A stretch of 54,547 nucleotides of DNA, taken from positions 1-54,547 of the forward strand of contig JAJPKL010000025.1 of the NCBI GenBank assembly GCA_021323705.1, given 5' to 3'. A program made the translations under genes and the position numbers. The notes beneath the pieces are model-generated. The model saw only the letters and a program-made list of their open reading frames with translations. It made no database searches and was not told where the DNA came from. Positions 18,126 through 36,534 of the stretch are shown here, piece after piece; position 1 is the stretch's first letter, and every line of letters begins with the position of its first letter. The stretch is from Nitrososphaerota archaeon. Its GTDB lineage: Archaea > Thermoproteota > Nitrososphaeria > Nitrososphaerales > Nitrosopumilaceae.

Positions 18126-18706
18126 GTCTTCTTTCACGTTCGTTTTACCGCAGGGATACAGTAGATGTGGCAAAAGATCTTTTGGGCAAATTATTGATTC
18201 GAAAAATGGATGGAATGTTAGTTTCGGGAATCATCTCAGAGACAGAAGCTTATAGGTACAAAGACGATCCTGCGAGCCATTCTTTTAGAGGTATGACAGA
18301 AAGGAACAAAGCAATGTTTGGGGATGTGGGTAAAGCCTATGTCTATTTCACATATGGGATGCATTACTGTGTAAATGCCGTTGCAAGAGATGAAGAGTTT
18401 GATGCAGGAGCCGTACTAATGCGAGCCCTTGTTCCAAAATCTGGTCTTAACTTTATGATGAAACAACGAAAAACAGACGTAATCTCGAACCTTACAAACG
18501 GTCCTGCAAAGCTGACTCAGGCACTAAAGATAACAAAGGATCAATATGGTGAAGACTTGACAAAAATTTCAAAATTGTACATCGCTGATGGTATTGACAT
18601 AAAAAAGTCTATGATAGAGTCAAGACCTAGAATTGGAATCAAAAAGGCAACTGCTAATTTATGGAATTTCAGCATTAGGTCCAGTCATCTTAAATCATTG
18701 GGATGA
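18122..18706 (+). CDS. 3-methyladenine DNA glycosylase, AAG type
   Basis: A 194-residue AAG/MPG-family enzyme, which excises alkylated and deaminated purines. The catalytic-Glu motif is 'SETEAY' (Glu42), followed by 'DPASHSFRGMTERNKAMF' and 'AYVYFTYGMHYCVNAV', the family DNA-binding blocks, and 'LTNGPAKLTQAL'. It is translationally coupled to udg, giving a two-glycosylase repair pair. Its 3' end overlaps the convergent htrA gene by 12 bases. Confidence 0.95.
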   Translation: MSLLSRSFYRRDTVDVAKDLLGKLLIRKMDGMLVSGIISETEAYRYKDDPASHSFRGMTERNKAMFGDVGKAYVYFTYGMHYCVNAVARDEEFDAGAVLMRALVPKSGLNFMMKQRKTDVISNLTNGPAKLTQALKITKDQYGEDLTKISKLYIADGIDIKKSMIESRPRIGIKKATANLWNFSIRSSHLKSLG

Positions 18707-19912
18707 CGTGGGTCTTGCAGCCAGTGTAACAGTAACATCTGTGGATTTTCCCTGCCTGTCTACTGTAAGCACTGTCTTATCACCCACGGCCTTTTGGTCG
18801 TCCAAATATGCTATTATGTCATCAATTGTCTTGATTGGATGCCCATCTATTGCAGTTATGATATCTCCTCCGTGAGGAATGTTGTTGTTGTCAAGTGTTG
18901 CTGCCACAATGCCAGCCTTGTCGGCAGGACCACCTTTTACAACATTTTCAACTATGACGCCCTTGAAATTACGTGCAAGTCCGTTGGCAAGAGAAACGTC
19001 TGGATCCAAAGTCCTTCCTGCTATTCCGAGATAGGGGTGCTGATACGAACCATTTTTAATTAAAATTGGTACTATCTTCTTAATAGTATTTGAGGGAATG
19101 GCAAACCCGATTCCTGAAAAGTCACCGGTGTTTGTCTTGATTGCTGTATTCATTCCTATAACCTCGCCTTGCAAGTTTAGAAGTGGGCCTCCAGAATTGC
19201 CTGGATTTATTGCAGCGTCGACTTGGATCACGTCAGGTATTGAGTATTTTGTGTTTTCATTTGGAAGCAGACGTGCCAAGGCACTTACTATTCCTGTAGT
19301 CATTGAATCACTTAGGCCAAAAGGATTGCCTATTGCAACAACCTGCTGTCCGGGCTGAAGTTCGGATGAGTTTCCTAAAGTAAGCGGAACGAGGTTTTCA
19401 TCTGAAAAATTATCTATGATTTGTATCACTGCTATATCGTTGTCAGGATCAGTTCCTACAACTTTTGCTGTGTATGTATTTCCATCAATAAATGTGACAT
19501 TTACAGTGCTTGATCCGTCTACAACATGATTATTTGTTATAATGCGACCTTCTTTGTCATAAATGAATCCAGAACCTAGTCTTGTTGACTGGCTTGAAAG
19601 AGGTTGCCCATTTATTATTATGGTCGCATCTGTCGTAGCAACTTTGCTAGTTATTTGAACTACTGAATTTTCTGTTTTCTTGAAGAGATCTGTCAGAGTT
19701 GAATCTAATAATGGATCCGTACTGCTAACTGTTCCAGGTTTCCCAGGAGGACCGGGTGGACCTTGTGGCCCAGGTGGTCCTGGAGGACCTTGAGGCCCCT
19801 GCACTGTTGCTTGAGATAAATCTCCAAAATCCCGACCGTTGGTGAATTGTATAACGATAACAGCTGAGAGTGCGATAACTGCTCCAATTAGTACCATTTC
19901 AAGTCTTTTCAT
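18695..19912 (-). CDS. HtrA/DegP-like serine protease with collagen-like stalk
   Basis: A 405-residue membrane-anchored protease. It has an N-terminal hydrophobic anchor (about residues 5-23), then seven to eight Gly-X-Y triplets (residues 39-61, [10 protein letters not shown]-like), a trypsin-like domain with His129 (TNNHVV), Asp159 (DPDNDIAVI) and Ser240 (NPGNSGGPL), and one PDZ domain (about 293-395). HtrA proteases are trimers, so a collagen-like stalk could help trimer assembly and hold the protease away from the membrane. It probably acts outside the cytoplasmic membrane in protein quality control. The stalk is unusual for the family. Confidence 0.94.
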   Translation of the reverse strand: MKRLEMVLIGAVIALSAVIVIQFTNGRDFGDLSQATVQGPQGPPGPPGPQGPPGPPGKPGTVSSTDPLLDSTLTDLFKKTENSVVQITSKVATTDATIIINGQPLSSQSTRLGSGFIYDKEGRIITNNHVVDGSSTVNVTFIDGNTYTAKVVGTDPDNDIAVIQIIDNFSDENLVPLTLGNSSELQPGQQVVAIGNPFGLSDSMTTGIVSALARLLPNENTKYSIPDVIQVDAAINPGNSGGPLLNLQGEVIGMNTAIKTNTGDFSGIGFAIPSNTIKKIVPILIKNGSYQHPYLGIAGRTLDPDVSLANGLARNFKGVIVENVVKGGPADKAGIVAATLDNNNIPHGGDIITAIDGHPIKTIDDIIAYLDDQKAVGDKTVLTVDRQGKSTDVTVTLAARPTSSQ

Positions 19913-33392: not shown

Positions 33393-34529
33393 CTACGTGT
33401 TTTGAGCAGTCTCGCTTCTTAGCTTCTTTGTAGTCTGACTCTCTATGTGATCGAAGAGATCCAACATTTTTTGTTTGTTTGACTGGAGATATTCGTAGCC
33501 TTTGTCAGTCAATCTAATTTTAAAAAATCTGATATCGCGATGTTCCTCAAAAAAGTGCTCTATCATCTGTGCGCCTCTCTTGTTTGGATCAATGAAGACA
33601 TCCATCTTTGCAATGGCGTCTTTTACATCGCCTTTTTCTATTGCAGCCTTTACTGCTTGAACTGCCTCGCTGATCTCTTTTAAATGTTGAACCAACAACG
33701 GGTTTATTTTCTTAGTTGTGCCAAACAATCCCTTCTTTTCAACACCTATCTTGGCTGCCAATTCTGGAGCAATCTCATACTCTTCTATCTTGGTTAAACC
33801 AATGTTTTTGTCAACTTTTACCAAAAGGCCTTTTTCTAACAATTTCTTGGCCGCATCCTCAACCTCGGACTTTCCTAACATCGTCGTCCAAACTATCTGG
33901 CCAACCTTGTGATATCCTTGTCTTACTGATTCCAAAACGACAACTTCGACAATTCTTCTATAGCCCTCATCTGCCTTGACATTTTCAAAGTCTCTGTCTC
34001 TCACAGCTTTTTTTGCATTTTTTACATCGATTTCAATTGAACGTTTCAAAGCCTCGATGGATTCTGGAATGTTGTTTAGAAGAGAATTATAGCAAGCCTT
34101 GTTGTACCAAGACATACCGTCCGTTGGATTTATCTCAATTGACTTTTCTACGCACTCGAGCGCTTTTTCATAATTTTTCTGCCTGTAGTATATGAGGCCC
34201 TTGAGATTCCAGGCTTCCGAGTTTGTGACATCTATCTCATGAACCTTGTTATATGCTTCCATGGCTCCTGCAAAGTCTCCCATGTGAAACCTTGCATAAC
34301 CTAACTTGAGGATGGAGTCTACGTGTCCAGGGTCTATCTGTATGGCTGCTTCAAAGGCAGTGACAGCATCTTCCATTTTTTCATCTGCCATCAAAGAAAT
34401 TCCCTTTTTGTACATCTTGTCTCTGGTGTAGTTTGGATTGGTTAGCTTTGATTCAGATGACTCTACCGACCTTTCTTGCTCCTCTTTATCTTTGGAGGGT
34501 TCGGGATTGCCTTTGAATAATTTTTTCAC
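33393..34529 (-). CDS. TPR-repeat protein with winged-helix-like C-terminus
   Basis: A 378-residue protein with a charged N-terminus, about four tetratricopeptide repeats (about residues 35-175, for example 'AWNLKGLIYYRQKNYEKALECVEKSIEINP') and a C-terminal region with winged-helix features (KSEVEDAAKKLLEKGLLV, later RLTDKGYEYLQ). It is a likely protein-protein scaffold, perhaps linking to DNA or RNA. Convergent with the rhodanese gene. Confidence 0.85.
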   Translation of the reverse strand: MKKLFKGNPEPSKDKEEQERSVESSESKLTNPNYTRDKMYKKGISLMADEKMEDAVTAFEAAIQIDPGHVDSILKLGYARFHMGDFAGAMEAYNKVHEIDVTNSEAWNLKGLIYYRQKNYEKALECVEKSIEINPTDGMSWYNKACYNSLLNNIPESIEALKRSIEIDVKNAKKAVRDRDFENVKADEGYRRIVEVVVLESVRQGYHKVGQIVWTTMLGKSEVEDAAKKLLEKGLLVKVDKNIGLTKIEEYEIAPELAAKIGVEKKGLFGTTKKINPLLVQHLKEISEAVQAVKAAIEKGDVKDAIAKMDVFIDPNKRGAQMIEHFFEEHRDIRFFKIRLTDKGYEYLQSNKQKMLDLFDHIESQTTKKLRSETAQNT

Positions 34530-34656
34530 GGATGGTAAAATATGGATTTTCCATGGATAAATACTATTCCGGGTGGTCTAAAAAGTAAATTTTATTGGCA
34601 AACGGCCTTTATAACGCCTGATAAATACAAAAATACTCAGGTATCACAACTAGGAT

Positions 34657-36072
34657 ATGTCAGCCAGAGATAGGACAATCGAGATAACTGGCGATTCGCC
34701 ATTTAAGCTATCGTCAGGAGTCTTTGAGGTGCAGATCTCCATATGTGACTACCAGCCTTCTCAGGAAGATGTTAAACGTAGAAATTTTCCTACTATATGG
34801 AAAGATAACTTTCATCTAAGAGTAAAAGACAAAAAATTTACTCAAGTTCTAGGTTCTACCCGAAACCCAATCCCAGATTTTGTATTTACAAGAGATACTG
34901 TTTGGATTGTAGTCCTAGATCAGTTTTCGTCAGTCAATAACACTTTTCAAATAAACATACCACAGATCCCAGGCGAAGCAACACCATCCCCAAGTCTAGA
35001 AAGCGAGCAACTGACAAAGAGCAGCCCAAAACCGCCTACAGAATATTATTATCCGACTCCAGGTGCTCCGGGCCCTCGGGGTCCACAAGGACCGGCGGGG
35101 GTTCAAGGTCCACCAGGTCCGCCAGGTCAACAAGGGCCTATGGGCCCCCCAGGTCCCCAGGGCCAGCAAGGTGACAAGGGTCCGCCCGGCCCTCATGGTC
35201 CTCCAGGTGATCAGGGTCCAAGGGGTCAGCCAGGGGATAAAGGAGACAAAGGAGACAAGGGACCAACTGGCGATAAAGGAATTACTGGTGACAAGGGTCC
35301 GTCAGGAGACAAAGGCCCACGAGGTGACAAGGGAGAAACTGGTGACAAAGGTGACAAAGGCGATAAGGGTGACAAGGGAGAAAAAGGAATTACTGGAGAG
35401 GTAGGACCACCAGGTGATAAAGGTCCAACTGGGCCGCCGGGTCCATCAGGTGATAAAGGTATTCTTGGTCCTCCTGGAGAGAAAGGACCAAAGGGTCCAG
35501 TAGGCCCAATAGGTGACAAGGGTCCAGTGGGTCCCCAAGGTCCGCAAGGCGACAAGGGACTTACAGGTCCACAAGGTCCGCCAGGCGATAAAGGCCCCCA
35601 AGGTCCACAAGGTCCACCAGGCGAGAAAGGCCTGACAGGAATTCCGGGCCCACAAGGAGAAAAAGGCCCGCGAGGCTTACCAGGTCCGCCGGGAGAACAA
35701 GGCCCACGAGGTCCAGCCGGTCCACAAGGTCCGCCCGGTCCACAAGGCATTCAAGGCCCCCAAGGTGATAAAGGTCCACTAGGTCCACAAGGTCAATCTG
35801 GTGACAAGGGACCTCAGGGAGTACAAGGTCCGCAAGGCGACAAAGGGGTTACAGGTCCTCCAGGTTCTCCAGGCGATAAAGGCCCCCAAGGCCCCCAAGG
35901 TCCTATGGGAGAACAAGGCCCACGTGGTCCCCCCGGTCCACCAGGTCCTGCAGGACAACCGGGATTCTCAGAACAACAAAAACAACTGATCACTCAACTT
36001 CTTGAGATCTTGGCATCAAAGAATTTGATCACAACAGAGCAACAAATAAAGTTGCTAAGCTTCCTCTACTAA
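34657..36072 (+). CDS. Collagen-like protein with 100 Gly-X-Y triplets
   Basis: A 471-residue protein in three parts: a beta-rich N-terminal domain (residues 1-105) and linker, an uninterrupted Gly-X-Y region (residues 136-436, 100 triplets by count) and a 35-residue helical C-terminus with a Leu/Ile pattern. GDK is the commonest triplet, and KGD sequences, known to stabilise collagen helices by Lys-Asp salt bridges, are frequent. That could substitute for hydroxyproline. No signal peptide or membrane helix is visible, so the location is unclear. It probably trimerises. Confidence 0.93.
35062..35964 (+). repeat. Gly-X-Y coding repeat tract
   Basis: About 900 bases of imperfect 9-base units encoding the 100 Gly-X-Y triplets, rich in GGT/GGC and CCA/CCG codons. 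It stands out from the AT-rich surroundings and is a natural site for recombination or repeat-number change between strains. Confidence 0.85.
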
Positions 36073-36184: not shown

Positions 36185-36275
36185 GGCCTGAATCTGTTAC
36201 TGTCCGAACCCAACAGCCAGGCTCCATCTTGCTAAAAGATTAAAATTATCGCCTGATTGCAAGCGATAATTTTTT
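36185..36275 (+). ncRNA. Candidate structured small RNA with three hairpins
   Basis: Three consecutive hairpins fill this gap. Hairpin 1: GCCTG (36186-36190) pairs with CAGGC (36218-36222), and inside it CTGTT (36194-36198) pairs with AACAG (36212-36216). Hairpin 2: ATCTT/AAGAT (36226-36240) around a GCTAA loop. Hairpin 3: an 11-base stem (36242-36252 with 36263-36273) followed by T bases. A TATA-like box lies upstream. I do not recognise a known RNA family. Chance pairing is possible, but the three exact, ordered stems argue for a real RNA. Confidence 0.45.
36242..36275. terminator. Bidirectional hairpin terminator
   Basis: AAAATTATCGC / GCGATAATTTT form an 11-bp stem with a 10-base loop. 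The forward strand ends in six Ts, and the reverse strand also ends T-rich. It sits 5 bases after the stop of the basic protein gene (reverse strand) and ends the candidate small RNA (forward strand), so it can serve both. Confidence 0.6.
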
Positions 36276-36279
36276 GATT

Positions 36280-36417
36280 TTATCTTCTGCGTTTTGCTGA
36301 AGATCTTTTAGCTTTTTTACCCGCTGTTTTTCTTGCTGCAGATCGTCTCTTCGGAGCTTTTCTCTTCGGAGCTGATCTTCTTTTAGCAGCTTTCTTAGCG
36401 CGTCTTTTAGTTGCCAT
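36280..36417 (-). CDS. 45-residue Lys/Arg-rich protein, histone-H1-like
   Basis: A short reverse-strand gene (ATG 36417, stop TAA 36280-36282) whose product is almost only Lys, Arg, Ala, Ser and Pro (MATKRRAKKAAKRR, then SAPKRKAPKRRSAARK), like the tail of histone H1 or a small nucleic-acid-binding protein. A 63-codon frame covers the same bases in another phase, but it runs through the terminator hairpin and is less like a real protein. This frame ends just before that hairpin. The DRG GTPase and zinc-ribbon genes upstream hint at a ribosome- or RNA-related role. Confidence 0.7.
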   Translation of the reverse strand: MATKRRAKKAAKRRSAPKRKAPKRRSAARKTAGKKAKRSSAKRRR

Positions 36418-36534
36418 TGCAACATTTTACATTTCACTTGTTTTTCTATCGTTATGCTTAAGAAAATTACACTAAATGATGATGTTGTATCAACAAATTT
36501 TTGATAAAATCCTAAAATTTTGATCGCGTTTTAG

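Follow-up and report, generated by a model that had tools for sequence, protein, structure and literature searches.

The window analysed, a stretch of 54,547 nucleotides from an archaeon of the Nitrosopumilaceae, encodes on the plus strand (34657..36072, ATG start) a collagen-like protein of 471 residues with orthologues across 22 of the 22 Nitrosopumilaceae genera. It is built of a head, a linker, a rod of 101 Gly-X-Y triplets in one run without a break and a short tail; head and tail matched no known family, and no export signal was found. The collagens known from prokaryotes are accessory proteins of surfaces, spores or phages and vary between strains. The gene described here is a clade-defining, single-copy core gene of the Nitrosopumilaceae, a family of ammonia oxidisers abundant in the sea and in soil. 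Its repeat is of a known kind; new are the core status, the end domains and the apparent cytosolic synthesis in archaea.

Architecture of the gene and its product

The head (residues 1-105; 34657..34971, plus strand, as are all parts of the gene) was modelled with confidence by AlphaFold2 as an Ig-like beta-sandwich (mean pLDDT 90), in agreement with the preliminary description, which had noted a distinct N-terminal beta domain. Ten columns of the head are invariant in an alignment of 31 genus-level representatives, and the head contains the motif WKDxFHLRVKDxxFxxxLGSxxNPLP...WIVVxDQFSS. It matched no Pfam or NCBIfam family, and its fold had no significant counterpart among PDB or BFVD structures. 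The linker that follows (residues 106-135; 34972..35061) is rich in Pro, Ser, Lys and Glu and variable in an alignment of 28 orthologues.

In the AlphaFold2 model the tail (residues 439-471, 33 aa; 35971..36069) folds into a hairpin of two helices (pLDDT 94). A helical C-terminal domain had been recognised in the preliminary description, as a single helix, and in this respect the assignment had to be changed. In the window protein the tail terminates exactly at ...IKLLSFLY, and in an alignment of 27 genus-level sequences ...IKLMSYLY stands at the chain end; tail length is 33-37 aa across 57 full-length orthologues. Neither Pfam nor NCBIfam has a family matching the tail, and Foldseek with the 36-residue tail as query found no informative fold match. 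A SHOCT-like or other Pfam identity, suggested by eye, was dropped, no Pfam family having matched consistently. We propose that the tail may be a trimerisation or docking module. Cysteines number 0-1 per protein and form no disulphide pattern.

The collagen gene is monocistronic; its constant neighbour, transcribed divergently, encodes a TPR and winged-helix-like protein (33393..34529, minus strand; Pfam TPR). The 50 nucleotides upstream of the start codon (34607..34656, plus strand), with the arrangement CTTTATAACG ... GATAAATACAAAAATAC ... ATG, are strongly conserved in 18 congeneric sequences and probably act as promoter and leader. On the other side of the gene a small Lys/Arg-rich open reading frame (36246-36437, minus strand) lies between the collagen gene and a Zn-ribbon-like gene; homologues were found only at nearby congeneric loci.

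A Gly-X-Y register kept by selection

The rod (residues 136-438; 35062..35970) accounts for the match of the open reading frame to PF01391, which scores 170.9 bits where the cut-off is 27.2, and it aligns to fibrillar collagen chains in the PDB along their length. The preliminary description had counted 100 triplets in residues 136-436; the run is indeed uninterrupted, and its count and extent are to be corrected to 101 and to residue 438. At the glycine content of this protein such a run has a probability of approximately 10^-66, and a chance origin is therefore excluded. The X position is occupied by Pro in 51% and by Asp or Glu in 30% of the triplets, the Y position by Lys in 26%, Gln in 24% and Pro in 21%. 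The commonest triplets are GDK (21 of the 101, which bears out that the rod is GDK-rich), GPQ (16) and GPP (15). In its perfect repeat, its proline-rich X position and its K, Q or P at Y the rod is like other PF01391 collagens; unlike animal collagens, the protein has no animal-type propeptides, and its head and tail are of no known family. The PF01391 match to the repeat says nothing about origin.

Codons were compared between 11 congeneric species, each of which has exactly 101 triplets. Each of the 101 glycine codons is variable at its third base while positions 1 and 2 never change; in pairwise comparison these codons show 3473 synonymous differences versus 0 non-synonymous ones, whereas non-synonymous differences number 1051 at X and 1113 at Y. 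The DNA repeat has decayed while the protein register has been maintained, and every glycine of the rod is under purifying selection. Towards the middle of the rod two stretches of the window protein (approximately triplets 21-35 and 51-66) are conserved between genera above shuffled triplets, which hints at a putative binding zone there.

Salt bridges in KGD pairs had been suggested as a possible source of the rod's stability, without hydroxyproline. Such pairs are present (KGD 5, KGE 2, RGD 1) but not enriched: the window protein has 8 pairs from Y to the X of the next triplet versus 9.5 expected, slightly under chance, and in its relatives K/R-G-D/E pairs are at or below chance. Enrichment is seen instead for acidic-basic pairs within single triplets (GDK or GEK), with 25 seen versus 9.5 expected and relatives alike. 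Nor can a collagen free of hydroxyproline be assumed, because among the genes of the genome is one for a 2OG-Fe(II) oxygenase of 250 aa (PF13640, 65.5-67.5 bits; G000:C25:91338-91649 and L220:1462-2214, minus strand in both) whose top PDB match is a prolyl 4-hydroxylase. From this similarity the oxygenase is a possible candidate for the proline hydroxylase of the collagen.

Distribution in the Nitrosopumilaceae and the conserved locus

Counted with a profile of the head domain, the gene is present in 205 of 250 Nitrosopumilaceae genomes and in 122 of the 131 high-quality ones, and the related genes that were sought in relatives were found in every genus (22/22). In a sample of the order 124 of 300 genomes contain the gene, all of them Nitrosopumilaceae, and the matches listed for a sample of the class likewise all belong to this family; no orthologue was found in the other sampled families of order and class. 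Twelve genomes of the family without a match were probed for the neighbouring TPR gene, which was present in seven. In six of these seven the contig stops within or just past the TPR gene, at the expected start of the collagen gene; only G088 has room upstream of the TPR gene without a collagen gene, and here the absence may be a true one.

The orthologue set comprises 57 distinct full-length sequences, three more that were broken, N-filled or divergent having been left out. All 57 have a single unbroken Gly-X-Y run, of 69-185 triplets, so that the register, examined for loss between strains, was kept throughout. Run lengths in Nitrosotalea are 98-102 triplets in one clade and 123-124 in a second; an alignment of one member of each clade indicates that the length changed by insertion of whole triplets, including a repeated block of 22 residues. 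Head and tail accompany the rod in every genus examined, except in single broken or N-filled copies. Frameshifts were seen within the head in the copy of Nitrosotalea sp. TS (L040) and within the rod in the copy of G101 (L107, 5985 onward; a closed genome), each in a single genome, and may reflect decay of the gene or sequencing error.

In almost all loci the order of genes is sulphite reductase, rhodanese, TPR (minus), collagen (plus), DRG GTPase (minus), HAD (plus) and ArgRS (plus). The TPR gene is also found in ammonia-oxidising archaea (AOA) of three further families of the order, which lack the collagen gene, and is absent from the other members of the class sampled. In two of these three families it lies near the HAD-ArgRS pair without an adjoining head-like gene. 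Most simply, therefore, the collagen gene would have been gained in the ancestor of the Nitrosopumilaceae beside an older TPR gene.

Cellular location and possible function

The protein has no signal peptide, because an in-frame TAG stop (34651..34653, plus strand) one codon 5' of the ATG rules out an N-terminal extension; the one-codon spacing from TAG to ATG is the same in 17 of the 18 congeneric sequences examined. Signal peptide, transmembrane segment and anchor were lacking in all orthologues checked. In 45 orthologues no 19-residue window reaches transmembrane hydropathy (maximum 1.54 versus 2.48 in a membrane-anchored HtrA control), and the LPXTG motif occurs in 0 of 45 sequences. The preliminary description, which had seen no signal peptide on an archaeal collagen-like protein with distinct head and tail and had called its location puzzling, was right on these points. 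Having neither a Sec/Tat signal nor membrane segments, the protein most likely acts intracellularly; the collagen appears to serve as an internal component or to be exported via an unrecognised route. When charge composition was compared between the acidophilic genus and the others in search of an inside/outside signature, both kinds of control were shifted, HtrA and AmoB as well as the cytosolic ones.

The window also encodes an HtrA/DegP-type protease (18695-19912, minus strand) in which 8 collagen triplets (approximately 19730-19804) come after a membrane anchor at the N-terminus. This linker has approximately 2 to 11 triplets in congeners and 8 in one sister genus (G261); the HtrA/DegP homologues of other genera are without it.

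We give about an even chance to the reading that the gene product is a core homotrimeric collagen rod with heads and tail that most likely serves as an intracellular strut or spacer. Three identical chains would join by the C-terminal helical hairpin and zip into a straight, unbroken triple helix of approximately 87 nm, as calculated from 303 residues and the established collagen rise of 0.286 nm per residue. The architecture places the three Ig-like heads at the N-terminal end on linkers that are probably flexible, where they would act as ligand-binding ends. Synthesized without a Sec/Tat signal or membrane segments, the rigid rod would bridge partners held by the heads and by the tail inside the cell.

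Known prokaryotic collagens are found mostly on surfaces, on spores or on phage tails, and the protein was compared with each kind. The LPXTG-anchored adhesins Scl1 and Scl2 (NF038329, NF038330) also have a long Gly-X-Y rod, charged triplets and a globular head, but they differ from the window protein, which has no signal peptide, wall-spanning region or LPXTG motif and ends in a helical hairpin of 33 aa. BclA of the Bacillus exosporium likewise lacks a signal peptide, is synthesised in the cytosol and has separate end domains; it is spore-specific, has a repeat of strain-variable length and carries a C-terminal TNF-like jelly roll. Unlike BclA, the archaeal protein has a length fixed by clade (98-102 or 123-124 triplets), is encoded in the core genome of an archaeon that forms no spores and has a tail modelled as a two-helix hairpin rather than a TNF/C1q-like beta jelly roll. 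The family is not described in the open-access literature searched, which is weak evidence of novelty since most subscription journals were outside its scope.

One alternative is an extracellular collagen, an adhesin or an S-layer-associated stalk leaving the cell by an unrecognised, signal-independent route. It is in line with the surface location of most prokaryotic collagens characterised so far, and the Ig-like head, whose first PDB match is the bacterial adhesin SgrA (insignificant; E 0.05, TM 0.48), is consistent with it. The lack of signal peptide, anchor, LPXTG motif and transmembrane segment in the orthologues checked argues against it, as do the NF038329 scores (233.9 for the window protein and 289.2 for an orthologue with 163 triplets; cut-off 325), and we consider it doubtful. 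Identity with an LPXTG-anchored adhesin is ruled out by the absent motif, the absent signal and the sub-cut-off score; judged from its sequence, the protein does not have the features that define this annotation label. For N. chungbukensis an "LPXTG-anchored collagen-like adhesin" has been published that is raised in low-salt medium and was seen in the proteome (PMC13037477); it is possibly, but not necessarily, the orthologue. Equating the two is not justified, because in one related genus some genomes encode further Gly-X-Y proteins. An example from a related genus is a separate Gly-X-Y frame of 2518 aa in a Nitrosopumilaceae genome (G246:C1, approximately 1250779-1255668, minus strand), the locus of which is unrelated.

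Two further explanations were weighed. Proteins with repeats of biased composition can be disordered, and the rod could be a hydrophilic low-complexity linker selected for its composition alone rather than a triple helix. Selection for composition only would not maintain the register, and here glycine stands at exactly every third position without a break in 57 orthologues while X and Y vary, insertions and deletions preserve the register, and X is rich in proline and Y in K, Q and P as in triple helices. This makes a disordered linker quite improbable. Very improbable is also a domesticated viral tail-fibre or virion collagen, used for example in a particle or an injection-type device. Phage collagen-like tail fibres (PHROG 6320, 5073, 819 and others) do have Gly-X-Y stalks without signal peptides, and these PHROG families match the repeat, but the matches are confined to it and the end domains are not shared. 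Searches of 2.9 million viral contigs and of 50,697 phage records gave no relative of the head, which also had no significant fold match in BFVD. The neighbours, from sulphite reductase and rhodanese through TPR, DRG GTPase and HAD to ArgRS, are housekeeping genes rather than virion or prophage genes, and the gene is present vertically and in single copy in 22 genera.

For an intracellular strut the most attractive specific guess is a role in cell shape or as a scaffold, because the cells of the Nitrosopumilaceae are thin rods. In culture Nitrosopumilales grow as rods and Nitrososphaerales as cocci (PMC4129164), Nitrosocaldus are cocci (PMC5817080, PMC5797428), and the same contrast of rod and coccus between AOA families is given in PMC13037477. 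Presence of the collagen gene tracks the rod-shaped AOA family and absence the coccoid families; this match is a correlation only and goes back to a single evolutionary gain. It is distinctly unlikely as it stands that the collagen, as a triple-helical strut in the cytosol with a clade-dependent length of 59-159 nm, is a cytoskeletal element helping to set the slender rod shape. If true, the strut would represent a class of prokaryotic cytoskeleton not recognised before, in archaea that are very abundant.

An archaeal family of global importance thus has a vertically inherited, single-copy core collagen that lacks an export signal and has new domains at both ends. The gene makes it testable whether a cell can use collagen in its cytoplasm and how the Nitrosopumilaceae come by their rod shape, and it would be a source of natural, unbroken triple-helical rods of defined, clade-specific lengths.
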